Positions 18,818 to 46,524 of a stretch of 64,000 bases of DNA are shown here, in pieces. Below the pieces are notes generated by a model. It saw only the letters and a list, made by a program, of their open reading frames with translations. It ran no database searches and was not told the origin of the DNA. The translations under genes were made by a program, and so were the position numbers. The first letter of the stretch is position 1. Each line of letters opens with the position of its first letter. The DNA is from Reticulascus tulasneorum (lineage: Eukaryota; Ascomycota; Sordariomycetes; Glomerellales; Reticulascaceae): assembly GCA_001557505.1 (NCBI GenBank), contig LSAX01000006.1:3224001-3288000 (forward strand), written 5' to 3'.

Positions 18818-21205
18818 TCATGCCTTCTGGCTCCGTAAGCTCCCTCGCAACGGCGCGTTGAACCCCGATATGTACCCCGTCCGAGCATCCCTCCTAGCCC
18901 CTCCTCCGACCACGACTCCGCTCTTTCGCACGCCGATCCCTCTCAGGCTCTTGACCACGGAAGCATAATCACCGAAGAAGGCATGGGCACGGACATCTCG
19001 CCCAGAAGTCAGACCGTGGCCCAGCGTGACGCCCCAGAAGCCCGCGACGTTGAGCGCGTGCGCGGCGCAGTTCCTGTCGGGCTGTAGGAGGATCGAGTAG
19101 ATGCTGCCGGTGTACCACACCGGCCGCTCAGCAATGTGGGCAGGGAATACGAACGTCTTGCCGTTGGTCGAGATGGGGTGCCAGGGCGTGACGATGAGGG
19201 GGCCGACTCGGCACATGATCTCGTGCCGAACAGGTGTCTTCAGCACGGCCATCACGCGGCGGGGTCCAGCTGGTGTCTGCACCGCCACCCCGCGTCGTAG
19301 GTTCCGGATCGGGACGGTCTGTCCCGAGGCCAGGCGGACTGGGGTGGATGCTGCGAAGCACACGCCCGAGGAGTTGTTGTACATGCTCATGCTGACATGG
19401 CCACGGTAGGTGGTGTGGTTCGAGGGCTTGGGTGCGGGGAGAGCATCGAATGCGGCGTCCAGCCTATCGCGGCACTTGATGAACAGCGGGCTGTTGACAC
19501 CGTACTGCAGCGGCCCCGGGTCCTTGAACGAATTGCAGATCTGTCTCGTGTGCGCGTTCAGGAGGGAGGGCAGGTAGTGGTGTCCCCACTTGTGGTAGTA
19601 ATCCGGGTTCCGCACCGCGAGCGAGATCTGGCCTTTTGGTTCTGGGCCGCAGAGGTCCTCGACCAGGGATTTGTTTTGCGCGTCGTCGTAGCCGTGGCAG
19701 GGAGCATTATCGACGAGGTAGGAAAGTTCCATCAGTTTCTCGTCAGGGACAGTTTTCAGTGCCTCGTGCTCTCCGTCGTCTTTGAGGGGGATCATGGATG
19801 AGAGGAAGGCACAGATTGCAGATCGTGACAGGTGGTATGCTATCTCGGCTGATGACAGAGCGGTGATGTCGTTGACGCCGCATTGCGTGGTTTGCTTGTA
19901 AATGTTTCGCGTCAATCTTGAGTATTGGAGTACTGCCGTGATGGTTGGGGCGTCTCCTTTCTCCAGGAGGATCTCTTTCAGGTTCACATTCTCCTTGTAG
20001 CGAAGATACATATCCCGGGATTGGCCGTACTGTATGTTCCCGAGGGAAATGGTCAGTTGCATCCGCTGGCCCTTCTCGTCTGGGATTTGCGTCGGTTCCT
20101 GCTTGTCAACCGAGTCGCCTGTGGTCTCCTCCAGCTGCAGCTCCGACGGGTATGTGAGTGTGACGGTCGCGTTATTTGCGTATGTTGCCTGGAGGTTGGC
20201 GACTGCATGGACAAAGACGGTTCCCTAGATGAGACGATATTTAGCATCTGCGTAAGTGTTCCCGGGAGAAGACTAGTTTCCGACTTACGATCATGCCAGC
20301 GTCAGGGATGAAAGCGTAGTTACCGCCGCCGATCTCAGCAATGGACTTCAAGAGCCCTGACCTGAGGTTGTATCCAAAGCCAAAGGTGTGAATGCTCGCT
20401 GGGAGCTCCTCCATCGATCGAATCTTGGGGACGTATCCCTGCGCAGGACACCTGCCTCCGTTAGTGGGGAGCCGTGCTGCTGGATTAGCCGGACCTACAT
20501 ATGATTTGGCATGCCGTCGGTCAGAACCATCAGTGCGGGAACTCTCCCGGTCTTTGCCTCGCCGTTGAACAATTTCAAGGCCTCGAGAATACCGTGCCAA
20601 AGGTTGGTGGCATCGATAGGTCGCATGCCGTCGATGTTTTTGGCGGCAAGAGCCTTGTTGCTCCTGGTCATGGGGATGAGCTTCTGGACGAGCTTCGCCT
20701 TGGACGCGAAGGTCACTATTCCCAGTCGGTCGTTCTCGCCCATGGTCTCCAGGATGGTCCGGGCTGCATGCTTCGTCAAGTCTAGGACCGAGAGACCGAG
20801 ATTTTCGGTTTCTTCGCCAGGATTTGCCGGGACCGGCGCATTGCAGGCCATGCTGCCGGAGACGTCGATGACCAGGACGATGTCGCATGGGGCATGTGAA
20901 TTTTGCTTCTTGGGGAGTCGGGGCGGCTGGATCTTGACCAAAAGCCCTTCCCTGGACGGTAGAGGGTGCAGAGAGACGGCGGCATCATCGGAGCCATTAT
21001 TTGGTTCTGGTTGGAGAGATGCGCTGGAAGTGCTGATGGTCTGCTGACTCCAGCTGGTGGAGCTGGTGTCGGAGCGAGTCCTCATACTCAGTTCGCCCTC
21101 GTTGGGGCCGCCAAAGAGGTAGTTGGAGACCTTCTTGATCTAGAAACGATGTCAGTCGGCTAACCAATTTTGACCGTGGTCTGAGTGGGATTGGCATACC
21201 ACCAT
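18818..21205 (-). CDS. VWA domain protein with C-terminal Hint (Hedgehog/intein-type) domain
   Basis: Four exons on the minus strand (21205-21200, 21139-20499, 20451-20289, 20224-18818) give 738 residues with all phases consistent. A VWA domain has its MIDAS motif DVSGSM at about residues 94-99 and a conserved TDGMPN loop. A linking region corresponds to the fungal Vwaint type. The C-terminal Hint domain begins at Cys559 (SSGVCFAAS) and contains the B-block T-P-W-H (Thr616, His619). Hint domains cut the chain at the N-side of the first Cys through a thioester. Here that would release the VWA part with an activated C-terminus, or attach it to something. This VWA-plus-Vint arrangement is known from fungi, with poorly known biology. 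No signal peptide is visible. The first exon is only 6 nt (ATG GTG), a tiny-exon start worth confirming. Confidence 0.88.
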
Positions 21206-30103: not shown

Positions 30104-30202
30104 ATGTCCACGTCCAACTATTGCTGCAAATGCGGAAGCATGATCGTCATCAGCACCTCGTGTCCCTCTTGCGGCCACAAGGAATGCAAGACTTGTTACT
30201 GA
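30104..30202 (+). CDS. 32-residue Cys-rich zinc-ribbon-like microprotein
   Basis: A short uninterrupted ORF starts MSTSNYCCKCGSM and ends CPSCGHKECKTCY. Cysteines fall in CxCG, CxxCGH and CxxC arrangements, which could hold one zinc ion (two knuckles) with a His alternative. The ATG follows a CT-rich and then A-rich leader and has a favourable context (GCCATG). Very short proteins with this CxCG...CxxCGHxxCxxC layout occur in Pezizomycotina, usually annotated hypothetical; function is unknown. Its size puts it below most gene-calling thresholds. Confidence 0.6.
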   Translation: MSTSNYCCKCGSMIVISTSCPSCGHKECKTCY

Positions 30203-30625: not shown

Positions 30626-32342
30626 TCACCGTCCCGAAATTCGCTTCTCCAACATCCTGAATGGTACATACAGTAGTCCGGTTACAACAAACGCCAACTC
30701 GAAGCCAATGTCGCCCGTCGTCTTCGCTATCGGACCCGTGTACCACACCTGCGACATGCTCGGCACCACCAGTCCGAACGACATGACGCTGGCCGTCAAC
30801 GCAGCGATGCCCGGAGGTAGAAGCTTCGCATTATCCCATGACTCGAGATCGTATGATGTACAATCTGCTTTACGGAACCAGAGGTGCTCGACAATGACCA
30901 CAGCAAGGAACGCGGCTGACCAGTAGCCGATGAGGGCGATGAAATACTCAAGAGTGAGGAAGAATTCGGCAGCTGCGCGGATGCCCACTGGGATGACGAC
31001 TATTGTGACGAGGATGGCGAAGAGGTAGCGAGGGACTTTTTTCATCACTGGCAGGAGAATCTGAAAGTTGAGCGTGACCGAGTAGCTCGTTGCCGCGATG
31101 TTGCCCAACAGACTGAAGGAGAGAATGACGGTGACGAACTTCCCAAAGCCCCCGGCTGGCGAAAGCATGGCATTCATGACACCCCCGACCAGATGGGAAT
31201 TGTACCCTTCATCCCAGGCAGGGACGCTAGGTCTGGCTCCAGCGATGGCAGCACCGAGCGTCATGAAAAGAATGGTCGGAAGGGCGAGACCAGCATACGT
31301 ATACATGAAGATGAGTTTCCTACAGTTATGGTTAGCTGAAAGTCCCTTGCAGTTTCGGATAGTCCAGTGCAACTGACGAGGAAGTCTTGGGTTCGAGATA
31401 TGTGGTGAAGTCGGAAGCCAAGCATGCCCAAGGGATCATATACGACGCCACAATCATGCCGAACGACATCACAGACGGGGCTGTGACTGGCCCAGCTAGA
31501 GGTGCCTGATCTTTCAGATGAGAGCCGCCGCAACCAACTGCGATGATGATCGATATGACAGCAGGAATCCACGCCCAACGCTCGTACATGTGCAGGACGT
31601 TAAATCCGCAGAAGGAGATCGCGAGCGCAAGCAGCGCCACAATTACGATGCCCACTGCCGGGCTCAGACTGCCGCCACCAACGGCCGAAAGGCACTGGCC
31701 GCCAATAACCGCCATGATCACACAGAAGCCAACTAGCGTGAGGACGTTCAATATGACTGGAACGGAGACGAGGTACCGGCTGCAGAGTGTTAGTCATGGA
31801 AGCTCCGATAGCCGCAATGGATTGTTTCGTACCCAAAGCTAAAACGAGCCTGGATCATCTGCCTCATACCCGTCTTCGGCCCCAGTGTAGACAAATAGGC
31901 TGGTATAGTGGTCGTCAACAGCGTGAAGAACAGGATAACCAGAGCCGAGTCTTTGATAGCGAGGCCATAAACTGGCCCAAGCATGCCAAACGTGATACTG
32001 TTATGAGTTCCAATTAGCTTTCTTGACATCTCATGGAATCGTCAACTCCGACTTCAACTAGACTTACGGTAAGATATTGGCATTCATGCAGCACCATAGG
32101 GTAAAGATGTTGACCGTTCTGGTCACGGTTCGCTCTTCGACGGGAATAGGCGCAACGCCCCGAACTTCAACGCGTCCGAAAGTGACGATCTTCTCCATGA
32201 TCCCACGCCACCCGCCGGCTGGCGCGGATCGGGCCTCTGCAATAGAGATGGAACTGTCTGTCCCATTTTTGGTGCCATGGAGTGATGAAGACTTTTCGGT
32301 GACATGACCGGCAGCCTTCCCGGCTTCCACATTATCGGCCAT
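30626..32342 (-). CDS. NCS1-family purine-cytosine-type permease (Fcy2-like)
   Basis: Four exons (32342-32068, 31997-31833, 31779-31378, 31319-30626) give 511 residues, the usual length for the family. After a hydrophilic N-terminus come RVEVRGVAPIPVEERT and NIFTLWCCMNANILPITFGMLGP, the conserved first membrane region of fungal cytosine/purine permeases. TRMRQ-like (GPKTGMRQMIQARFSFG) and ASDFTTYLEP motifs follow, in about 12 membrane segments. Such proteins are plasma-membrane proton symporters for cytosine, purines or related N-heterocycles (a few carry vitamins such as pyridoxine). It shares its promoter gap with a divergent MFS transporter, and two consensus TTGCCGG motifs sit there. The likely substrate here is a nitrogen heterocycle; which one cannot be read from sequence. 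Confidence 0.92.
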
Positions 32343-33225
32343 CGTGGTGTTCTTCGACCAGCAGGCAGAGTTGATTGGAGGTGAAGATGAGTCTCAAGGA
32401 CAATATCAAAGTAATAGCCAAACAGTTAGCTGATTGGAGGGTGAGAGAGGCTGTCTTAACAGAGATTTTCGACGCTCGCATGAGTCACTTTGAGAACGAC
32501 GATGGCCGCATGGGTCTGTTACTTATGCATGGACTGATGTCCAATGCCCGTTGAGATAATGATAATCAAGGCTGATCAATCTCATTATCGCATTCGACAC
32601 GGACTTTGACCTGCCATCTGGACTCAACACAGCTTGGACACGACGCGCTGGTGAGGGCTAGAGCGATAAGAGCATGTCTTGGTATGGGGGCAATTGATAA
32701 AGACGGATGTAATCTCAATCTTGCCAGAAATTCCGATAACAGGGCGCCATGGCCATGTGGATGCATCTACTGTAAAGGACCCGCACGATCCTCACTCAAG
32801 CGTCCAGGCAAACGACTTTGCCGGAATTGAGGTGGAGCAGACTGTGGGCGGAGCTATCTGCGCAGAAACTTCACTCTTGCCCGAACTTGCCGGATATGCC
32901 ACGGCTTTAATTTTGAGGCTCTCAAGTGTTCCCGCTTGCTCTGATTCTACTGCACTAATTGACCAGATGTGACGCCCTACCAAGGAATCTCCACACGAAC
33001 CCTTCGGCACAGCATGGCCGTTGTCGGAGCTGCCCGAGATGTCTCCGGTATGCAGGCGGTGGTGCAGAGCCGTCATGCCGGTTACGGACTTCGGTGAGAA
33101 CCAACTGAGTCAATCTGAGTGATGCAGAGCTGTTTCTCACGTTCGAGCATTGTAGGACAAGTGCCTGTCATGGCTGGGATATACCTTACGCAGCCTTCCA
33201 TACACCAGACCACGATTAACAGAGA
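32343..33225. promoter_or_regulatory. Divergent promoter of permease and MFS genes with TGCCGG sites
   Basis: The gap contains TGCCGG at 32819-32824, 32888-32893 (both as TTGCCGGA) and 33076-33081. About 0.4 would be expected by chance in 880 nt on both strands. The same motif is dense in the other promoters of this cluster. I interpret it as the binding site of the neighbouring Zn2Cys6 regulator. Confidence 0.5.
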
Positions 33226-35176
33226 ATGTCAGACCTTCAGCACCATGCTAAAGATGAGGTGCCCGGTGATAATAGCCCCGAGAGACTCATGATGCCCGTC
33301 ACGGAGGGTCCCCTGGAGGTACCATACAGTATCTATACACGCAGAGAGAAATGGTTCATAGTTGCCATGGTGGCGGTTGCTGGCTTTTACAGGTCTGTCT
33401 CAATGTCCCTGCAATGAACCAAAGGACAAATGGGCGCTCTTTGGCCGAGTTTGATACTTGTAACTAACGCATAATAGCCCCTTGCCTGCAAACATCTACT
33501 TTCCGGCAATCCCAGTGATGGCTGACGCTTTTCATGTCAGCACCGAGCTGTTGAACCAAACCGTCACTGCATATTTGGTCATGCAGGGAATATGTCCGTA
33601 ATCCCAGGGGCGCGGCTCAGTGCAATGCTAATTTGACTGAACTCACCACTAACACGTTGCCAGCACCGATGTTCTGGGGCCCTCTATCAGATCGTTTTGG
33701 GAGAAGACCCGTTTTCCTAGCATGCTTGGTCGTCCTTATTGGGTCCTGCATCGGGATTGCCCTTTGCCCGACAAACGCGTTCTGGCTTTTGATTGTGCTT
33801 CGGTGCATGCAAGCGTCAGGATGTGCCAGCACCATCGCACTTGGTAAGTACCACAATGCCTAGGCGCTTGTAAACCTTCAAAAGTATCAAATTTCTAATT
33901 ATATCATTCAAAGGTGCTGGTGTAATAGGGGATATCTCGACCCCCGAAGAACGAGGTGGTTACTTTGGCACGTTCAACCTTGGGCCTATGGTACGTACAC
34001 ATGGATTAATGAACCGACAAATCCGGAGCTGACATGGTACAGCTTGCCCCCTGCATTGGACCGGCAATTGGTGGTGTTTTATCAGAAAACCTTGGATGGA
34101 GATCTATCTTCTGGACCCTGGTGATAATGGCTGTCCTTTGCTTCGTGTTCATCTTCTTGTACGTAACTCCTTCTCTGCCTTCTCAGCAGCCCCTTCTGCT
34201 TTTAAGAACCCAGACTAAAGCTGCTATAGATTCTTGCCTGAGACTATGAGAAATCTTGCTGGCAACGGCAGCATTAGTCTCGGGGGCGTTTACAACCCGC
34301 TCCTCCCCATTGTGGGGCGCAAGTCAACCAAGCATCCGAAGCAACCTGGGTGCAAGGAGATGCTTATATCACTCAATCCATTTGTGATACTCGCCTACCC
34401 AGACGTTCTAATTACACTTATCTTCACTGGCATAGTGTACGCAGTTAACACCACGATTACTACCACCATTGCGTCTTCTTTCGCCGGGATCTACCCCTGG
34501 CTGTCCGAGACAGTCCTTGGTCTCTGTTACTTGCCCACCGGAGCTGGCATGATCGCTGGCAGTACCTTCACTGGAAAGCTTCTGGACTGGGATTATGCCA
34601 GAATAAAGAAAGGTGTTGACGTCCAGGACGGCACCATCTTGTTTCCGAAAGAATACGCCCGCCTGCGGACCATGCCAGTACACCTCGTGGTGTTTACAGC
34701 TTGCGTTATTTCCTGGGGTTTCTGCATCGAATATGCTGCCCCTATCGCGGTACCCCTGATCCTGCAGGTCATATGTAAGTGCTTGTCTGGTTGCTGGCTT
34801 GAAGAAAAAACTTGTGTCTGAACTATGAATTTGCAGTGGGATATACATCTATCGCAATTCTGAACGCCACCATGACGTTGATGATCGATATTCTCCAAAC
34901 AAGAAGCTCATCCGCAACCGCATGTGTAAGTGGCGTCTTGTATTCCTTGATTGCTATGATGGGTGCTAATCCCCGTAACAGACCAATCTTGTTCGTTGCT
35001 TGCTGGCCGCCTTACTGGTTGCCGTGATAGACAGAATGACGGCGACGCTTCGTGCGAGTTGGAGCTACGTACTACTCGGGGGAGTGTGCGCGTTGCTTTT
35101 GCCATTGATGTACGTCGAAATCAAGATCGGGCCAAGATGGAGGATACGGCGAGATTCCAAGGTGGTGGATAACTAG
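33226..35176 (+). CDS. MFS transporter, DHA1 (12-TM drug:H+ antiporter) family
   Basis: Eight exons (33226-33392, 33478-33593, 33664-33843, 33914-33990, 34043-34158, 34230-34774, 34837-34925, 34982-35176) all join in phase and give 494 residues. TM1 reads PLPANIYFPAIPVM. Loop 2-3 carries the MFS signature GPLSDRFGRRP, and the antiporter motif C region reads LAPCIGPAIGGVLSENLGWRSIFW in TM5. The SETVLGLCYLPTGAGMIAGS stretch is typical of fungal DHA1. Members export drugs, toxins, polyamines or metabolites. Divergent from the NCS1 permease, it probably exports a toxic intermediate or brings in a relative of the cluster substrate. The intron count (7) is far above its neighbours, which are intronless or nearly so. 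Confidence 0.92.
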
Positions 35177-35650
35177 GCATATTTGGTCAATGCGCTATAT
35201 ACAGCTCACGAGATTGATGCTCTTATAAAGTGATAACTGGGACATCCTGTATCTTGGCCGTCCATCGAGCCAATGATCATAGGAAGGAACAAAGGGTTGT
35301 TAGAGAGGAATGAAATGAAAGTATCCGGTGACCGTGATGTCTCGGAGTGTGGCCACAAAGGCTAGCTCAGAGGACATGAACACTAGAAGAGAAAGCTTGG
35401 TCTCAAAGAGAAGGGTATCCTGAGATCGGCTGGGAATCTGGGCCAAGAACACAAAGCTGAAGGAGAGAAATTGCACATTTGGGCTGGGTTTAAACAAGGC
35501 TCAGGGAACAATAGAACAGCGATGTGTTCTCAAGAGCGTAATATCATGATACACCGGTTTATCGTGGGACGTGGACCTACTCGAGTCACCACAAATAGAA
35601 ATAAATATTCCATATATTAGGCGAACAGCTCTAGGTAACTGGTATCACAT
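35177..35650. other. Convergent intergenic gap
   Basis: 3' ends of the MFS gene and the isochorismatase-like gene face each other. It contains no TGCCGG motif, which makes it a useful internal control for the motif seen in promoters. Confidence 0.5.
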
Positions 35651-36404
35651 CTATCTTGTTCCCCAACCTGCTTGCAAGCGATCCACGGCATCCTGTTCGG
35701 ATACGACATCTGCATACTTAGAATCGAGGTCGAACAGATTTGCCTTTTGAATCTCGGTACTTCTATCTCCACACGCTGCAGCCACAACCTACAAACAAGT
35801 TAGTCTTCAAGATATTTCCTAAAGAGGGAGTAGTGTCATATACCATGGGGCGGAATCCACTCTGCATCGCGTCTAATGTGGTCGCTCTCACGCAGCCGCT
35901 GGTGCTAACCCCACAGATGAAAACAGTATCGATCCCTCGACATGTCAACTCTGTCGCCAGCGTCGTACCGAAGAACCCGCTTGCGTACTTCTTCTTGACC
36001 ACCGCATCCCCTTCCTTAGGTGTCAAGTCCTCGTTCACCCAATCGGCCAATCCCTGTTGATGAAGCTCGCTGCCCATCTGCCACACAGCCAGCGTTTTTG
36101 CTTTGAGCCAGAAAAGCCCGGCGTCGGCCATGTCCGGTGAGGTATACTCGACGGCCGTCCACACAACGGGGACGCCACCTGCCCGGGCTGCGGCAACCAG
36201 CCGAGCCGCGGACGCAGGAACTGAGACGGCCTCCGGGTTAGAGGAGAGATCTAGTGGGGAACCCGGGGTCCAATATGCTTTGCAGATGTCGATCAACAAG
36301 AGGGCAGGGCATGAACCCCACCCCATGCGGTTGCCGTAGCCTGAGGCGGCATAAGAGGCTGCATCGCTGTGTGCGATCTTGGCGGAGTCGGGCTTGATTG
36401 CCAT
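35651..36404 (-). CDS. Isochorismatase-family cysteine amidohydrolase (N-carbamoylsarcosine amidase-like)
   Basis: Two exons, 36404-35844 and 35788-35651 (55-nt intron, phase 0), give 232 residues. The start is MAIKPDSAK. GWGSCPALLLIDICKAYW contains the catalytic Asp39, the AVVKKKYASGFFGT stretch the Lys (about 138), and GVSTSGCVRATTLDAM the nucleophile Cys171, so the Asp-Lys-Cys triad is complete. The K-x3-S-x-F-F-G-T spacing resembles N-carbamoylsarcosine amidases more than nicotinamidases or true isochorismatases. The family hydrolyses amide or carbamoyl C-N bonds to release ammonia, for example in creatinine and maleamate breakdown. With the ring-cleaving dioxygenase next door, a role in deamidating a ring-fission product is plausible. 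The promoter has a dense cluster of TGCCG sites. Confidence 0.9.
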
Positions 36405-36813
36405 GGCGTGTAACTAATTCTGATAGGGAGGACCTGATCTGCAGGGACAATTCAGGGCAGTCAAACAAAGTAGAGGATCTTGGTAAAGGCCATGCTCGGC
36501 ATTTGAACACGAATGTTTGAAGGCATATGCAACATGCCGATTAATTGCCGGGATTGACATGATGTGCATTGTGCCAGGGCAATGTGGAGTTTGGATTGCC
36601 TGCCGGACGGCTAGTGCCGAGAAAGAGCGGGCAAACGATCACTATCAATATTGCCGCTTATACCGGCAATACGTCGAACCCCACATTCGTTGGCGGAGAC
36701 TGAATGAGATGAGCTGGTATGGTAATGGATCGATCATATCTCAGTGCCGGGGCAACCCCGGTAAGAGTTGTTGTGCATCTGCATACCGCCTGCCTCTCAA
36801 AATTTAGTCCAGC
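36405..36813 (-). promoter_or_regulatory. Promoter of amidohydrolase gene with TGCCGG array
   Basis: Sites occur at 36497 (reverse), 36535, 36546 (TTGCCGG), 36601, 36615, 36652, 36664 (reverse) and 36744. TTGCCG at 36651-36656 and CGGCAA at 36664-36669 form a perfect inverted repeat with a 7-nt spacer, the geometry expected for a dimeric Zn2Cys6 protein. Confidence 0.6.
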
Positions 36814-39009
36814 TCACATGAGGAGTCCAGACTGGTTCCAATCATCTAGCAAACCGTAATGTAAATCGCCGCTGAGAAAGGCGGCAAGCTCAGCGTCGAA
36901 TAACTCGTTCGGAAATGCTTCCATTTCCGTGCACGGCGGTGCAGGTCTTCGACCATCATCGTCATCGGATTGTTGCCCATTCTTGCCCAGACCACCTGAG
37001 TGATTTTGGTGATTCAGAATCCGAGGTGATGGAGCATTGAAGCCAAGGCTTCCTAACGTGCCTCGCCGACTTGACTCGCCCTGGTCATCCTCCATAGTGG
37101 CCCCCTCGCTGCGGCCATCTAGTCTTGTAGCGGATGGACTGTCGATTGCAGATAGAGGGCTGGCAATGTGCTGCAATCCCCTTTGCCACTTCGCACTCGT
37201 CGGCCAGGCCTGGTGCAGCTCACTCAGCACGTTTAATGCGCGCATCGCCATGTCTTCTGCCTCGCCTGCAATATGCGGGCACAACTGGGGATGCCGCCAC
37301 AGGTACGATGCCAGTGAGCCGCACATGTAGACACAGAAAACCAAGATCGCTGGAAATCCCTCGTCCCTCGTACGCATGCTGAAGTAAGCGTCGACTTGTT
37401 CGTGCAACTCTAGAACGTTGTCGAACAGCTCATATGAAATAGATTTCCAGAATCCTTCTGGGGCTTGGGGTGTTTCCTCTTTAGCGGCAGGTGCCGACAG
37501 TGAAGTGGACAGAGCAGAAATAATATGATCTAGATAGATCCGCCTCGTGACAATGTTGCTGAGTCGTAGAACCATAACAACGGAGAGGTATGCCAGGTGT
37601 AAAGACTCTGCTCGCCAGCCCCGTAGATTCCATACGCTCCATTTGTGCTTCGGAGGCATGCTTTGCTCCCACTGTCGTAACGATTCCGTTAATTCTTCAT
37701 ACTTGCTTCCGCTTTCCCATGGTGGTGCACCAGAGATGCCGCTCAGCATCGGATCCGGAAGACCTGCTCGACGTGCTACCTGCCCCCACAGATTGTGAGC
37801 CTGAATAAGGGTCGCAAACAGACATCTCTGTGGGCTCGCTGCCAGATGCTGATGCAAGATCGCAGGAGGTGTGCCCGCCAATGTTGCTCTCTCTGCAGGT
37901 ATGACCCCAAACGAAAAATCGGCCTCGTCACAAGGAAGATACACTGTAATGTCGTCTACAGGAAATGGTGCTGGCGTCGTATATCCGGACTGAAGATTCT
38001 CCTGGCTCTGAATCATCCAAAACGTCCGCCGCGCTGATTCGGCGCGCACAACTTGATCAGCTGGCGCATCCGCTGGAAGAGTATACGTCTCCTCTCGGTG
38101 AAGTTTCAACAGAGCAGCCATACGAACCGCGACTCCCATATCCATCGAGCTTCGGTCTCGATCCCCATTTCCCCACTCAGCGATAGCAAGCAGGAAAAAT
38201 GCTTGCGTCCTGTCCAGTGATGGGCGATACATCTCCGTCGAAGCCATCGCTCGCGATTTCTCCAGGAAGAACTCTGTTGCTGCAGCGGCAGAGCCATAGC
38301 GGCGAACCAGCGACGGCGTGAATCGTGATGAGATTGAAAGGATACATGAGAGGAGAAAGCGGCTTGATGATGATGGATTGCGGATGAGGTTCTCAAGGAA
38401 GATGGCTTTTGGGATGAACCCTAGCTGGAAGTAGGAAGTTACAAAAGTCTTGCAACCTTCAACCACCTCGTCATGCGGAGGAAACGGGTCGTCATGCTCC
38501 TCGGCTGGTGAAATCTGATCCGCTGATCGAGGGTTGGCGGTAAATGGAGCCACTGGTCTCGAGGGAGTAGTCCTCACAGACGGAGTTGGCAACGATCCTG
38601 GCATAGGATTTGAAGCCAGATTGCTGTCATAACCATGCCGACTTGCAAGGGCAGTTCGCTGGACAGCCGTTGATGGGGATGATGCGGCAGCAGCATTCGC
38701 GGAACCACTGTGCCGCTCTTGAACAGTGCGCCGACGATAGTGCCGATCAACATCCTGCTGCCCTCGACGAGGAAAGCTGCATTCTGCACGAATTGAGCCA
38801 CCGGCATCTTGACAGGCGTCACAAGGAGCTTGCCCTTTGTGATTGATGCATTTTGATCGTAGCCGGCGGCAGCGGCGGCAGGCGACTCCTCCTCGTCGCC
38901 GGACTGGTGGCTGAGGAGGATCCGACTCGAGGGGCGGCTGGCCGAGGTGAGCCTCGGTGGGCTCCGGATGGAAAGCCACCAACGATATGGAATCGCGATT
39001 AGATGCCAT
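36814..39009 (-). CDS. Zn2Cys6 transcription factor, probable cluster regulator
   Basis: An intronless 731-residue protein. The zinc cluster lies at residues 44-77 (Cys44, 47, 54, 63, 66, 77: CRRCRRLRSKC then CDACQDAGG...C). It is followed by a basic linker (RHYRRRTVQERH) and a disordered region. A fungal-specific transcription factor middle domain runs from about 180 to 600, including MGVAVRMAALLKLHRE and ESARRTFWMI, the usual conserved helices. The C-terminus is acidic and disordered (SDDDDGRR, FDAELAAFLSGD), plausibly the activation domain. The spacing between the last two cysteines (10) is slightly longer than usual. Its own upstream region has two motif copies within 125 nt of the ATG, suggesting autoregulation. 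It sits centrally in the cluster, so it is the natural candidate to read the TGCCGG sites. Confidence 0.93.
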   Translation of the reverse strand: MASNRDSISLVAFHPEPTEAHLGQPPLESDPPQPPVRRRGGVACRRCRRLRSKCINHKGQAPCDACQDAGGSIRAECSFPRRGQQDVDRHYRRRTVQERHSGSANAAAASSPSTAVQRTALASRHGYDSNLASNPMPGSLPTPSVRTTPSRPVAPFTANPRSADQISPAEEHDDPFPPHDEVVEGCKTFVTSYFQLGFIPKAIFLENLIRNPSSSSRFLLSCILSISSRFTPSLVRRYGSAAAATEFFLEKSRAMASTEMYRPSLDRTQAFFLLAIAEWGNGDRDRSSMDMGVAVRMAALLKLHREETYTLPADAPADQVVRAESARRTFWMIQSQENLQSGYTTPAPFPVDDITVYLPCDEADFSFGVIPAERATLAGTPPAILHQHLAASPQRCLFATLIQAHNLWGQVARRAGLPDPMLSGISGAPPWESGSKYEELTESLRQWEQSMPPKHKWSVWNLRGWRAESLHLAYLSVVMVLRLSNIVTRRIYLDHIISALSTSLSAPAAKEETPQAPEGFWKSISYELFDNVLELHEQVDAYFSMRTRDEGFPAILVFCVYMCGSLASYLWRHPQLCPHIAGEAEDMAMRALNVLSELHQAWPTSAKWQRGLQHIASPLSAIDSPSATRLDGRSEGATMEDDQGESSRRGTLGSLGFNAPSPRILNHQNHSGGLGKNGQQSDDDDGRRPAPPCTEMEAFPNELFDAELAAFLSGDLHYGLLDDWNQSGLLM

Positions 39010-39758
39010 ATTTGACGGGCAATGAAGTCAGAGGAAGAGATGATCTGGCTCGCTGGCCATTGTTGCTCTACAGCAAGCAAGATTCACACGAGTGTCTGAA
39101 CCGGCAATGGCTCGGGCAGACTTATCGGCAAATGACTGGCCCCGCAAGGCATTAGGTTTGACACGAGACCCACTGACGAATGGCCTAACTACCTAAGGTA
39201 CCTGACCTCCTGATTAGGGGGGCAATAGAATCCGCTAGCAATAACCCTGTTGGCAACTGGAAGACCCTGCCCTGCAGCGATTTAGTGGCTACCTAGGTGG
39301 CCCATCCCTAAGAACACAGGCGTAATGGCTATTAATTTTATCGCAGTGACGGCACTGGGACCGCTTGCTGAGCCAATTCCACCTTTGAGTTTGGGTATGA
39401 TTGGAAGAACCTCACCCCGAGGGTCCTTCTTCTTATGTGCAGTACAAGCAGTCACTATCAATGTCAAGTCTACAAGAAAGGACAGACAGGAAAAGGAGTC
39501 CGGGGCGTTTTATATGGGAACTTCCACAGGACAAGAGAGCGAGGGATTACTCGGATCGAGATGCGGTGGGAGGATTCATCATCCAAGATCTCTGCCTCAT
39601 ATCAATCGCGGTCTATTGTCAGCTTCAACTGCCCAGCTTTCGGGCTCGTAAATCAATGCCCTGAGATTAATGTATGCTATTAATATAGTAGAGTACAGTC
39701 ACTAATTGAAGCTGCCGCTATGATATTCACTTCTTCCTCGTGCATCATATGCCGGGAC
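39010..39758. promoter_or_regulatory. Promoter of the regulator gene, then 3' region of the dioxygenase gene
   Basis: CCGGCAA at 39101-39107 and CGGCAA at 39126-39131 (TTGCCGG and TTGCCG on the gene's strand) lie 92-122 nt before the regulator's ATG. The rest, to 39758, has no supported gene. Confidence 0.5.
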
Positions 39759-41261
39759 TTAGTTTATACCCCCAATTTGTCGTTTGTTGTTTGTTTCCCC
39801 ATTTGTACAGCCGTTTACTTTTGCCCTTCCAAGCGTAGGTAGGCCGGCCTTGACAAGATCCGCATCAATCTCATCCAGGTGCTCCAGAAAATGCGCATGC
39901 GACCCATCCCACTGGTCCGCCGGGGATAAATGTAGACTCTTCGAACCGTCGCCCCGGATAGCCCACTCAGTAAGGAGCAATGGCACACTGATATGGAACA
40001 TAAAGGCCACGGTGCCCTCACATACCCGCTCAGGTTTCAGCTCCCTGGTCGTCGCGTTCTTCCATGTCTCGTACGTCTCTCCATGCGGCATGTAGCTTGC
40101 CTCGTAGCTCAGACCCCCCGGCTCGAGCACATGGCTGCTCCCGCCATATGTGCCATAGAGGAGTCCCATCATCTCTGTTGACATGTTGCGGTGGTAATAC
40201 GGTGGTCGGAAAGTATTGCTTGTGGAGATCCATTTTGGTGTGAAGACGAGAAAGTCTGTCAAGGACACACCCGGGATTTTGGATTTTGCTGTTAGGACGC
40301 AGTAGACTGTTGGATCTGCTTGGTCGTGCTCGACGTTCGCCACGTTGATGAACTTTTCTGTTGCGTACTTGTATGGGACAAGATTGCCTCGCCAGGCCAC
40401 GACGTCAAAAGGTGTATGCGCTTGCCGACATGAATGAAGCGAGCCGGCCATTTTGTAGACGATTTCCCAGTTTGTAGAATCTACGTCAAACGACGCCAGG
40501 GGGCTCTCAAAATCATGCGGGAGAGCCATGCCGTTAGATCCCAGAGGACCAAGCTCGGGTAGCTCGTAGTGTGCGCCGAAGATCTCTTGGATATAGCCTC
40601 GGCTTGGTCCATCTGGGAGAAGAACACGGAAACGGATTCCTGCTTGGATGACAGCGAGTTCGCCTGGCCGCACCATCATCCAGCCGAGCTCAGTCTGGAT
40701 GTTCAGCCTGCCATGCTGAGGAAGAATAAGAAAGTCGCCGTCGTTATTGCAGAACGCTCTGCTAGTCATCGATACACCAGCGGAGTACACGTGCACAGCA
40801 ATGCCCTCTTTTAGTGTCGGATCGCCTTGGCCTGCTACTGTTCTGATACTTTGTACGAAGTCGACACTGGGCGATGATTCCGCATCCGGACTCAGCAACG
40901 GGAATGGATCCCAAGCTTGCTGGCCAGCGACAAATTCCACCCGCTTGTTCAGCGGCGAGAAACAAGTCTCAAGATGAGGGTTTAGTTCTGCGGCAGACGA
41001 AACATCCCCGTGCGCGACGGATGGTTGTATACGGTACATCCACACATGCTGCAATGTGGCCCGCGAGCTGATGAACGAAGATCCATTGAGCTGTTCCGAG
41101 TAAAGATCATATTTGCATTTCTGAGGAGCGTTCTGACTGCGTGGTAGCACACCTGGTATTGCCTCAGATGCGAACCTGTTCGCAAACCCCGTCTGATATC
41201 CATGAGGGTCAGATGTCGTTGGGACGGTTGAAAAGGCCGTCTTGGCTGTGGCGCCGACCAT
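39759..41261 (-). CDS. Homogentisate 1,2-dioxygenase paralogue with altered active site
   Basis: An intronless 500-residue protein from MVGATAK (41261); an in-frame ATG at 41354 would add 31 residues. The whole length aligns by eye to homogentisate dioxygenases: PQKCKYDLYSEQLNG, SDGDFLI-type NNDGDFLILPQHG, RGYIQEIFGAHYELPELGP, TFRPPYYHRN, EGTVAFMF. The iron ligands are kept: His357, Glu363 and His393 (human 335, 341, 371), as is Tyr372. However, the base His (human 292) is Gln314, human His365 is Glu387, and the His of the usual VAWHGN is Arg291. The family cleaves the ring of homogentisate with O2. These changes argue for a different ring substrate rather than a housekeeping tyrosine-pathway enzyme. 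It is divergent from the P450 with a motif-rich shared promoter. Confidence 0.9.
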   Translation of the reverse strand: MVGATAKTAFSTVPTTSDPHGYQTGFANRFASEAIPGVLPRSQNAPQKCKYDLYSEQLNGSSFISSRATLQHVWMYRIQPSVAHGDVSSAAELNPHLETCFSPLNKRVEFVAGQQAWDPFPLLSPDAESSPSVDFVQSIRTVAGQGDPTLKEGIAVHVYSAGVSMTSRAFCNNDGDFLILPQHGRLNIQTELGWMMVRPGELAVIQAGIRFRVLLPDGPSRGYIQEIFGAHYELPELGPLGSNGMALPHDFESPLASFDVDSTNWEIVYKMAGSLHSCRQAHTPFDVVAWRGNLVPYKYATEKFINVANVEHDQADPTVYCVLTAKSKIPGVSLTDFLVFTPKWISTSNTFRPPYYHRNMSTEMMGLLYGTYGGSSHVLEPGGLSYEASYMPHGETYETWKNATTRELKPERVCEGTVAFMFHISVPLLLTEWAIRGDGSKSLHLSPADQWDGSHAHFLEHLDEIDADLVKAGLPTLGRAKVNGCTNGETNNKRQIGGIN

Positions 41262-42062
41262 GATTGGGATGAGAGCAGGTAATCTTGAGCCAAGCAAATG
41301 AGTTTCCGAAGTGTGGACGCTTACTACCGCGGTCGTCAATGATTCTAGGACCACAAAAGCCGTGAGTGTGTGGAATTGATGTTGAGAGGAGGTCGTGGTG
41401 TGGTACGAACGAAATTGACGCGACTGTCGTGAAACTTATCCGCGCCACTGCAGAATTGAGACTCCTTCGTTAAGATCTTATCATACGGGTGGCGTTGACA
41501 TCTACCAAGTAAACTCGGCTCAAACTGCAGAACTTGGTTTACAAAACGTCGGCCAAACCCATTGGCATGGAGCATGCATAGGTGCCATTGTAGCTGATGA
41601 CATGCAGTGGCGGCAATCGTTTTAGTGCCGATCTTGCCGATCTTGCCGGATTGTCCACCGGCAGGCAGGACATTTCTTGAGATCCATACAATACTGCCCT
41701 TTCCAGCAATTCCAGACGGGCATTGCTTGTGATATGCCGGAGATAGCGAGGACCCACCTAGTCTTTCGTCAGGCAAGGCAGGCAAGTCTTGCCGCCGATT
41801 AACTCCCTGACTCGCCAGTACCTCGGTGGGTTTGCCGGTGCGGGCAGTCAAATTCGTGCAGTAGGCTCTCATATGGCATCCAACCTTGCCGGCAGGCACG
41901 CTACGCAGCCTCATCGAACACGACAGCAAAGGGTGCGGATGGTTTCTCACGAGTGCAAATGACACACATGAATGTAAAGTGCCGTATATCTTGCAGGAGA
42001 TCTCGCATACTGAAACCGAGATCGTTGGTGTCCGCATCCCCTTGGCGTCTTACACTCCCCCA
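41262..42062. promoter_or_regulatory. Divergent promoter of dioxygenase paralogue and P450, dense TGCCGG array
   Basis: About ten TGCCG cores lie within 41611-41894: 41611 (reverse), 41626, 41635, 41644, 41658 (reverse), 41735, 41790, 41833 and the palindrome TGCCGGCA at 41887-41894. TGCCGG at 41644-41649 and CCGGCA at 41658-41663 form a perfect inverted repeat with an 8-nt spacer. Roughly 0.5 TGCCG would be expected by chance in this span. Confidence 0.65.
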
Positions 42063-43622
42063 ATGGCGCTCTTGCAATTACTCACCTCCAAGAACACCGG
42101 TCTGGTAGCAATACTGCTGGTCGCGTTTCTTGGATATAAATTTCACAAGCTTACGACACGATCAAGAAGAAATCCCCTGCCATTGCCTCCAGGACCTCCA
42201 GGCCAGCCCATTCTGGGTCACCTTCGCGTCATTCCGGCCAACAATCCTGAATTCGCTTACGCGAAGTGGTCGAAAGAGTACGACTCGGATGTGCTGTACT
42301 TTAATGTCCTCGGGCAGGATGTGGTGGTTTTGAACAGCGTTCGCGCCGCAGTCGATCTACTGGACAAGCGAGGCGCCAACTACTGCGATAGGCCGCGATT
42401 CGTGCTCTTTGAGGTTATGGGATGGAGGAAAACGCTCACATTCTTAAGATGGGGTCCTGCATTCCGCATGCACCGCAAGATCCTGCAAAAGAGTTTCCAG
42501 AAAAGCAACATCCAGGTGTACCGCACACTGCAGGAGAAGGAGGCATTGATCCTGCTACAGGGCATCATGCGCCAGCCAGAGGCGTGGGAAACGCTACTCC
42601 GGCGATTCGCGACTGCGATCGTGATGGGTATTGGTTTCGGGATCAACGTCAACAGTGACAAAGACCCTTATATCCAGATGGCCATTGACGCATCTTACGC
42701 ACTTGGACATGGCGGTGCGCCAGCGGGAACCTTGGTTGATTTCTTCCCCATTGTGAAGAACCTCCCTAACTGGTTGGTCCGAGATCGCTCGCTCAAGTTT
42801 GCGCGGGACTGGAAGTGGGCAATTCGGCAGATTCACGATGCCCCCTTCGCAGCCGTCGAGGCAGATGAGAACCGCGAGGATAGCCTGATCAAGGTGCTTA
42901 TGGACCAACGCCAGGCACAGCTGGAGAAAGGCGAATCAGAATTATCTGTTGACGACATCAAAGGCGCTGCGGGAGCCGTGTATGCTGCTGGGCAGGACAC
43001 TACTTGGTCGACACTGGTCGTCTTTGTGCTGAACATGGTGCTTCACCCTGAAGTCCAGTCCAAAGCCCAGAAGATTATCGATGAAGTTACCGGCGGCAGC
43101 AGGTTACCTACGTTTGAGGACCGACCGAAGCTGGTATACATCGACTACATCGTCCAAGAGACGCTGCGATGGTGCCCCGTGTCCCCCGTCGGCGTGCCTC
43201 ATCGATCACTGGAGGATGACACCTATAACGGCATGTTCATTCCCAAGGGCTCGTTCGTGTACGCAAATGCTCGAGCCATGACCCATGACGAGCAAACCTA
43301 TGAGGATCCAGACGAGTTTAACCCTGATCGTTACATTCCCGTTCAGGACGGAGGACGGGGCGAGCCATTCCCTGTCGGCCAGTTTGGATTTGGGCGGAGG
43401 ATATGTGTGGGCAAGCACCTTGCAGAGGCAAGTGTTTGGATTGTGGTGGCCGGTATGCTGGCGACACTGAACATCGAGAAAGCTATCGGTCCAGATGGGG
43501 AGGAGCTGATCCCGGAGGTTGTCCTGACGAATGGCCTGACGAGCCACCCTCAGGCATTCCCAAGCCGCATCTCACCTAGAAATCGGGAGAGTCAAGATCT
43601 TGTCACAAACAGCGTGCGATAG
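42063..43622 (+). CDS. Cytochrome P450 monooxygenase (O-methylsterigmatocystin oxidoreductase-like group)
   Basis: An intronless, 519-residue protein. The N-terminal membrane anchor (LVAILLVAFLGYKF) is followed by basic residues and the hinge PLPPGPPGQP. The I-helix oxygen motif AAGQDTT lies at residues 308-314, ExxR at Glu366-Arg369 (ETLRW), PERF-type FNPDRYIP follows, and the heme loop FGFGRRICVG has Cys448. All catalytic parts are intact. The overall look (PFPVGQFGFGRRICVGKHLAEASVW) fits the fungal OrdA-like class, many of which act in secondary metabolism or detoxification. In this setting it most likely hydroxylates the ring before cleavage by the neighbouring dioxygenase. The ATG at 42063 is chosen because it begins right before the membrane anchor; the frame is open upstream to 41886 through the regulatory sites. 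Confidence 0.93.
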   Translation: MALLQLLTSKNTGLVAILLVAFLGYKFHKLTTRSRRNPLPLPPGPPGQPILGHLRVIPANNPEFAYAKWSKEYDSDVLYFNVLGQDVVVLNSVRAAVDLLDKRGANYCDRPRFVLFEVMGWRKTLTFLRWGPAFRMHRKILQKSFQKSNIQVYRTLQEKEALILLQGIMRQPEAWETLLRRFATAIVMGIGFGINVNSDKDPYIQMAIDASYALGHGGAPAGTLVDFFPIVKNLPNWLVRDRSLKFARDWKWAIRQIHDAPFAAVEADENREDSLIKVLMDQRQAQLEKGESELSVDDIKGAAGAVYAAGQDTTWSTLVVFVLNMVLHPEVQSKAQKIIDEVTGGSRLPTFEDRPKLVYIDYIVQETLRWCPVSPVGVPHRSLEDDTYNGMFIPKGSFVYANARAMTHDEQTYEDPDEFNPDRYIPVQDGGRGEPFPVGQFGFGRRICVGKHLAEASVWIVVAGMLATLNIEKAIGPDGEELIPEVVLTNGLTSHPQAFPSRISPRNRESQDLVTNSVR

Positions 43623-46428: not shown

Positions 46429-46484
46429 AGATGGCTATACGCAGATGGCTATACGCAGATGGCTATACGCAGATGGCTTTACGT
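46429..46484 (+). repeat. Four tandem 14-nt repeats
   Basis: AGATGGCTATACGC occurs three times exactly, then a fourth diverged copy (AGATGGCTTTACGT). It begins 41 nt after the stop of the coiled-coil gene, so it is probably in its 3'UTR. Confidence 0.9.
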
Positions 46485-46524
46485 AAAATTTAAGGCTTGG
46501 AGATGATTTCGCTTGCGTGCTTGT

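Follow-up and report, generated by a model that had tools for sequence, protein, structure and literature searches.

Positions 30626-43622 of a 64,000-nucleotide stretch of Reticulascus tulasneorum DNA (contig LSAX01000006.1, C32:3224001-3288000 of the 42.8-Mb source genome; hereafter the window) are filled by six adjacent genes, all present and intact, which encode two transporters, a hydrolase, a regulator, a non-canonical paralogue of homogentisate dioxygenase (HGD) and a cytochrome P450. A first-pass annotation had described these families and two divergent promoters, which are located at 32343-33225 and 41262-42062, and had read the set as a cluster for the breakdown of a nitrogen-containing aromatic, an interpretation that our analysis partly supports. 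Splice sites were picked by hand from GT-AG boundaries and reading frame, and the exon models are therefore predicted. In window coordinates, the features are as follows.

32342-30626, minus strand: NCS1 nucleobase-type permease; exons 32342-32068, 31997-31833, 31779-31378 and 31319-30626; 511 amino acids
32343-33225: divergent promoter between the NCS1 and DHA1 genes; two TTGCCGG (32818, 32887) and seven HGATAR GATA-factor-like sites
33226-35176, plus strand: DHA1-type MFS transporter; eight exons, 494 amino acids; TIGR00710, 129 bits
36404-35844 and 35788-35651, minus strand: isochorismatase-family hydrolase, maleamate amidase/N-carbamoylsarcosine amidohydrolase group; two exons, 232 amino acids
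36405-36813: intergenic region, 5' of the hydrolase and 3' of the regulator; two TTGCCGG (36545, 36663)
36814-39009, minus strand: fungal zinc-cluster-type regulator with Fungal_trans (PF04082); intronless, 731 amino acids
39010-39758: intergenic region, 5' of the regulator and 3' of the HGD paralogue; one TTGCCGG (39101)
41261-39759, minus strand: non-canonical HGD paralogue; intronless, 500 amino acids
41262-42062: divergent promoter between the HGD and P450 genes; three TTGCCGG (41643, 41832, 41886)
42063-43622, plus strand: cytochrome P450, CYP621-like; intronless, 519 amino acids

Family matches were found to HgmA_N (E-value 7e-98) and HgmA_C (2e-41) for the HGD paralogue, p450 (1e-65) for the P450, Isochorismatase (2e-23) for the first exon of the hydrolase, Fungal_trans (1e-13) for the regulator, and TIGR00800 ncs1 (2e-51) and Bcr/CflA MFS (4e-37) for the NCS1 and DHA1 transporters, respectively. 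The NCS1 permease reaches 175 bits over most of TIGR00800, under the cut-off of 353.1 of a model built for bacteria and archaea, and PF02133 matches a single exon, barely above its cut-off. The P450 keeps the consensus heme loop, ExxR and I-helix motifs, as judged by eye. The earlier assignment of the regulator to the Zn2Cys6 type holds as regards the Fungal_trans domain and six cysteines read by eye (C-x2-C-x6-C-x8-C-x2-C-x9-C); the Pfam scan of this protein gave no Zn2Cys6 hit, and the last gap, usually of 6-8 residues, is one residue longer.

As judged from its sequence, the predicted ring-opening enzyme is not HGD proper, the second-sphere residues of HGD having been lost. In human numbering, the paralogue keeps the iron ligands H335, E341 and H371 together with Y350 and carries the substitutions H292Q, H365E and K353S. 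Roles for the second-sphere residues H292 and H365 and for K353 at the mouth of the active site are described in the available sections of PMC4019311 and PMC12803184, the first of which proposes that His292 and His365 handle the two hydroxyl protons of homogentisate. Among the best 120 of 1044 fungal relatives, H335 and E341 are each present in 120 and H371 in 119; H292 is kept in 14 and is Gln in 104, H365 is kept in none (Glu 107, Gln 11, Val 1, Lys 1), and K353 is kept in none (two gapped). All three residues are kept in 76/76 bacterial homologues, a set chosen by similarity and rich in Pseudoalteromonas (80 loci kept of 259 confirmed, four being dropped for want of a usable frame). Replacement as uniform as this within a clade suggests that the substrate has changed, not that the enzyme has decayed. 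Against TIGR01015, the hmgA equivalog model, the paralogue scores 480.4 bits, under the cut-off of 510.75, as do five of the six fungal relatives tried (474-502), and the HGD copy at C32:2316 kb of the same genome scores 631. A tree built quickly from 127 rows, of which 109 are fungal hits longer than 440 amino acids, 13 are bacterial sequences and five are controls, has the non-canonical proteins on one side of a branch with an SH-aLRT of 100; long-branch warnings concern eight rows, including the canonical copy, human HGD and 9PZ4. The residue corresponding to human His269, in the AWHGN motif, is Arg in the paralogue, which carries no inference because this position varies in bacteria too: it is Thr in 43/76 bacterial homologues, whose substrate may differ. 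PDB entry 9pz4, named homogentisate 1,2-dioxygenase, keeps H292 and has Gln at His365 and Glu at Lys353, and for this reason may likewise act on something other than homogentisate.

Four HGD-type loci are present in the genome, namely two with canonical residues, the window paralogue, and a relative on contig C2 about 60% identical to it. One canonical copy sits in a MaiA/HGD/FAH tyrosine cluster (C32:430-441 kb), and no MaiA or FAH match was found near the window paralogue. The idea that the six genes serve the breakdown of homogentisate or tyrosine was discarded because the canonical cluster lies elsewhere in the genome and the active site of the paralogue differs. No esterase was present in the nine open reading frames (ORFs) scanned beside the C32:2316 kb copy. 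Elsewhere, adjoining MaiA-like and FAH-domain matches (C34:1052653-1053643) may represent a gentisate-type lower pathway apart from tyrosine breakdown, and a second fumarylacetoacetase-like match (C25:2236714-2238033) is below cut-off, with two in-frame TAA codons in the unspliced reading.

That the genes form a cluster, as first proposed, and not a chance run is argued by the linkage of HGD, P450 and hydrolase in other fungi and by a second HGD-NCS1-P450 set in the same genome. Linkage was read from matching contig sizes and locus tags across three protein searches, clustered at 90% and covering the best 120 of 1044 HGD, 120 of 5570 hydrolase and 120 of 2265 P450 matches. A P450 shares the contig of 22 of the 118 listed HGD entries with a size (23 including P0117, a mushroom protein set aside because its contig size equals that of a metagenome contig), and a hydrolase that of 12/118 (P0117 excluded), against about 0.08 and 0.07 chance size agreements, respectively, per list pair. 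A shared large contig does not by itself prove closeness; 8 of the 22 P450-linked entries are on contigs below 70 kb, and the HGD and P450 tags are adjacent or, if tags are ordered, one gene apart in Stylonectria, Cirrosporium, Conoideocrella and Ophiocordyceps australis. For HGD and hydrolase, the tags differ by 3 or 4 in Diatrype, Stachybotrys and Cadophora; in Anthostomella, where tags seem to step by ten, they differ by 30. Among the matches listed, and counting by eye the named species found in both lists, the P450 is on the contig of HGD in 14/21 species and the hydrolase in 11/25 (Sporothrix schenckii, with two strains listed, not being counted). Of the 22 P450-linked entries, 18 had the length needed for the tree, and 16 of these fall in the 45-row clade of the window paralogue; all 12 hydrolase-linked entries were included, with six in a neighboring 34-row clade, four in the clade of the window paralogue and two on early branches. 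The presence of both P450 and hydrolase links on early branches fits an ancestral set with losses. No bacterial operon pairing HGD with the hydrolase was found, none of the 80 loci matching the hydrolase (tblastn, E-value 1e-3); the viral contigs searched contained no relative, and an 80-base DNA search matched only the window itself.

The second set in the genome lies on C2, where a search with the P450 gave eight exon matches (44-68%), the next relative being a single frame on C1 (33%). An NCS1 relative (exons 46-52%, one piece 35%) lies between this P450 and the dioxygenase, all within 12 kb, and a crude estimate puts the chance of such an HGD-NCS1-P450 coincidence at 4e-7. C6 carries an NCS1 relative that is closer still (exon identities up to 64-70%), and none of the other five cluster proteins has a match within the 10 kb around it. 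The synteny in relatives to which the first-pass annotation had looked is seen for HGD, P450 and hydrolase, the NCS1 permease joining them only via the C2 copy and a published Fusarium neighborhood. The gene order on C2 includes PfkB, P450-2, NCS1-2 and a RIB7-like gene; neither the RIB7-like gene nor the PfkB gene had a second match when searched against the genome, and both therefore look like housekeeping neighbors left in place on C2. A flavin adenine dinucleotide (FAD)-dependent hydroxylase lies about 2 kb from the C2 dioxygenase; among proteins of solved structure, it is most similar to 4-hydroxybenzoate decarboxylase (146 bits), a decarboxylative vanillate 1-hydroxylase (134 bits), an FAD-binding protein (133 bits) and 6-hydroxynicotinate 3-monooxygenase (95 bits). 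The window P450 is 69% identical to P0313, labelled CYP621A2 by its source. More than 40% identity to a named member places a P450 in a family, and the window protein is by this measure a CYP621. Two surveys, in their available parts, place CYP621 in a group tagged as xenobiotic metabolism (PMC10785452, PMC5985579).

The six genes also share a DNA motif, as the first reading of the sequence had noted. TTGCCGG/CCGGCAA is the most over-represented 7-mer across the four cluster intergenic regions, with eight copies in 2842 bp (2, 2, 1 and 3) versus 20 in 111 kb of background (0.51 expected; P 7e-8, or 6e-4 after correction for 8192 7-mers). Three copies occur in the 801-bp HGD-P450 promoter, a number reached in 0/524 background windows of that size. 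On C2, the 2.67-kb NCS1-P450 gap contains three copies and the other four gaps checked contain none. The signal from GATA sites is weak: the NCS1-DHA1 promoter holds seven versus 2.3 expected (P 0.009, uncorrected), a count that 2/523 background windows reach, and the other three regions hold two, three and two versus 1.1, 1.9 and 2.1 expected.

The hydrolase has the Cys-hydrolase fold and the Asp/Lys/Cys triad of the maleamate amidohydrolases (NicF/Ami). By sequence similarity, it groups with maleamate amidases (107 and 104 bits) and N-carbamoylsarcosine amidohydrolase (117 and 112 bits), close to the amidohydrolase type guessed at first. The predicted structure of its orthologue P0127 best matches NicF and Ami among the matches listed, with N-carbamoylsarcosine amidohydrolase within 1 Z. 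This family also includes urea-cleaving enzymes.

Together, the six genes probably represent a real, evolutionarily kept pathway for aromatic breakdown. A co-regulated catabolic cluster for a nitrogen-bearing aromatic, combining import, P450 hydroxylation, HGD-type ring opening and amide hydrolysis, is our preferred reading, held tentatively and at somewhat less than an even chance. In such a pathway, the NCS1 permease would import the compound and the CYP621 P450 would hydroxylate it to a para-diol (a 1,4-diol of the hydroquinone type), which the HGD paralogue, presumably adapted to a substrate that lacks homogentisate's acetate arm, may open between a C-OH and the substituted carbon next to it. 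Were this carbon to carry nitrogen, ring opening would give a carboxamide, from which the maleamate-amidase-like hydrolase could release ammonia and a small diacid of the maleylacetate type for the 3-oxoadipate pathway; DHA1 may export excess or toxic intermediates, and the local regulator presumably acts through the TTGCCGG sites. A precedent for the ring opening is the HGD relative MhdA of Aspergillus niger (NRRL3_10111), which, according to the accessible text of PMC8336404, opens methoxyhydroquinone beside the methoxy carbon to give a methyl ester; omeA, an annotated esterase gene adjoining mhdA, is needed afterwards, and its deletion leads to accumulation of the reduced methyl ester. By analogy, an amino group in place of this methoxy group would lead to a primary amide closely related to maleamate, HOOC-CH=CH-CO-CH2-CONH2, which would pair with an amidase where the MhdA route uses an esterase. 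The most economical substrate would be an aminophenol that is converted to 2-aminohydroquinone, since cleavage of the HGD type beside C-NH2 would produce a primary amide with no extra enzyme. Such a scheme would account for the P450, the dioxygenase and the hydrolase and would run as far as maleylacetate without a gap. It is conceivable, although we consider it rather unlikely, that eukaryotes have an undescribed route with CYP621 as entry hydroxylase, in which an HGD put to a new use opens an amino- or aza-hydroquinone next to nitrogen and a maleamate-amidase-like enzyme hydrolyzes the resulting carboxamide.

Several observations weigh against a nitrogen-releasing cluster of this kind. The mushroom relative P0088, without His365, passes the hmgA cut-off (583 bits), and a score under TIGR01015 is therefore by itself no proof of a new substrate. 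Among the matches listed, the P450 is on another contig than HGD in 7/21 named species (Ilyonectria destructans, Metarhizium rileyi, Cordyceps RAO-2017, Fistulina, Sarocladium strictum, Colletotrichum spinosum and C. acutatum), the listed HGD of the last three belonging to another clade. The hydrolase is likewise on another contig in 14/25 (Stylonectria, Cirrosporium, Thozetella, Verruconis, Pseudocercospora, Pleomassaria, Fistulina, Venturia inaequalis, Cladophialophora immunda, Aspergillus granulosus, A. californicus and the three Xylariales isolates FL2044, FL0641 and PMI_506), and the C2 locus has no hydrolase match; some of the unlinked cases may be separate assemblies or different paralogues. 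Amide hydrolysis is therefore not universal to the module, of which the hydrolase is a facultative partner. This isochorismatase-fold enzyme might equally cleave an amide while the ring is still closed, or have a urea as its substrate, and neither a maleylacetate reductase nor an isomerase is present in the cluster. Moreover, the preferred reading is drawn from the genes, from which we infer each reaction, the order of the steps, the nitrogen of the substrate and the link between regulator and motif.

The same module might instead handle a nitrogen-free hydroquinone, such as methoxyhydroquinone or plain hydroquinone from plant phenolics, with an MhdA-like paralogue and a hydrolase serving another amide, for example, an amide-linked precursor. 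This is in agreement with the hydroquinone activity of MhdA, itself an HGD paralogue, reported in the accessible text of PMC8336404, with the kinship of the C2 FAD hydroxylase to 4-hydroxybenzoate decarboxylase and vanillate 1-hydroxylase, and with the absence of the hydrolase from C2 and its patchy linkage in other fungi. On the other hand, the six genes include no carboxylesterase family, unlike the neighbor of MhdA, and no OmeA counterpart of this kind was found in the 20 flanking ORFs scanned; an NCS1 permease and a maleamate-amidase-type hydrolase would be odd for a nitrogen-free phenol, and the P450 would be superfluous where an FAD enzyme makes the diol. We regard this alternative as rather unlikely. 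A pyridine route appears improbable. Here the P450 would turn a hydroxypyridine into 2,5-dihydroxypyridine, from which the HGD paralogue would make N-formylmaleamate, with the hydrolase in the role of maleamate amidase; bacteria degrade nicotinate and nicotine along these lines, although their oxygenases are unrelated. The transport of ring-nitrogen compounds by NCS1 permeases is well established, and the hydrolase orthologue resembles NicF and Ami in fold; Glu177 of NicX bonds the ring nitrogen of dihydroxypyridine (PMC7910607, available text), and His365 of HGD is Glu in the paralogue. Dihydroxypyridine is nevertheless a less fitting substrate because the N-formylmaleamate deformylase that it needs is absent from the cluster, as is a maleate isomerase; furthermore, N-carbamoylsarcosine amidohydrolase scores slightly above NicF in sequence and lies close to it in fold, and fungal nicotinate breakdown uses a different cluster, as mentioned in the accessible part of PMC7842363.

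We find it more doubtful still that the module serves a purine-, pteridine- or flavin-like compound. The text of PMC12940212 available to us places Fusarium CYP621A near genes for a ribokinase, a purine-cytosine permease and Rib7, states in 2026 that the function is unknown, and suggests a hydroxylated riboflavin derivative; the C2 gene order matches this set, and urea-cleaving members of the hydrolase family would also suit such a compound. However, the apparent housekeeping nature of the RIB7-like and PfkB genes speaks against their belonging to the module, the window copy holds only HGD, NCS1 and P450 of the C2 set, and the main text of PMC12940212, as far as available, does not mention homogentisate. 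A gathering of unrelated accessory genes without a joint pathway is very improbable given the repeated HGD-P450 linkage, the second copy in the genome and the shared TTGCCGG motif, even though P450, MFS and zinc-cluster genes are numerous in fungal genomes.

Around the cluster, Pfam scanning of 20 of the 90 listed window ORFs showed no adjoining catabolic family; the left neighbor is an ankyrin protein and the right neighbor, with no Pfam family, looks coiled-coil-like by eye. A tiny cysteine-rich frame (CCKC...CPSC, by eye) lies directly left of the cluster at 30104-30202 on the plus strand, and a short tandem repeat with a unit of about 14 bases (cagatggctatacg, by eye) lies at 46438-46490, downstream of the right neighbor. 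Farther away, 18818-20224 on the minus strand encodes a fungal protein with an intein-like fold, combining a Vint Hint domain with a Vwaint domain.

From a functional point of view, these data give a testable job to CYP621, an orphan P450 family, and to a large fungal clade named homogentisate dioxygenase in databases yet without residues kept in the bacterial and human homologues compared. By their listed names, genera carrying the genes include the plant- or insect-associated Colletotrichum, Ilyonectria, Venturia, Ophiocordyceps and Metarhizium. If the amide step were true, fungi would have a route for the release of ring nitrogen built from other enzymes than the bacterial ones.

No described cluster of this composition was found in the open-access literature searched, most subscription papers lying outside its scope, in line with what the first-pass annotation had supposed. 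The Fusarium FDB1/FDB2 benzoxazolinone clusters (PMC4726666), compared for their plant-derived aminophenol chemistry, were rejected as a counterpart because none of the terms isochorismatase, dioxygenase, amidohydrolase, permease, P450 and homogentisate turned up when the main text was searched for them. The canonical fungal tyrosine cluster (HmgA, MaiA, FahA), also present in this genome, shares the dioxygenase superfamily, whereas the window paralogue differs in active-site residues and scores under the TIGR01015 cut-off. The Fusarium CYP621A locus resembles ours in having a CYP621 P450 beside a purine-cytosine (NCS1) permease, and its gene set matches that on C2; the window copy has no ribokinase or Rib7 alongside, and the accessible text of PMC12940212 names no HGD paralogue and no hydrolase. 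With the bacterial nic end steps (NicX, NicD and NicF, and Ami of Pseudomonas putida S16), the cluster would share the principle of first opening the ring and then hydrolyzing an amide, the fold of the hydrolase being nearest to those of NicF and Ami, on a par with that of N-carbamoylsarcosine amidohydrolase; NicX belongs to a different oxygenase family from HGD, and the cluster has no deformylase or maleate isomerase. In MhdA/OmeA, compared by description, the hydrolase is an esterase rather than an isochorismatase-family amidohydrolase, and the available text of PMC8336404 reports no P450 or NCS1 gene alongside mhdA. What this system shares with the window, as far as that text goes, is an HGD paralogue beside a hydrolase whose presumed task is to strip the remaining substituent from the product of ring opening, a substrate that here too would be of the hydroquinone type, and a separate HmgA-like gene in the genome.

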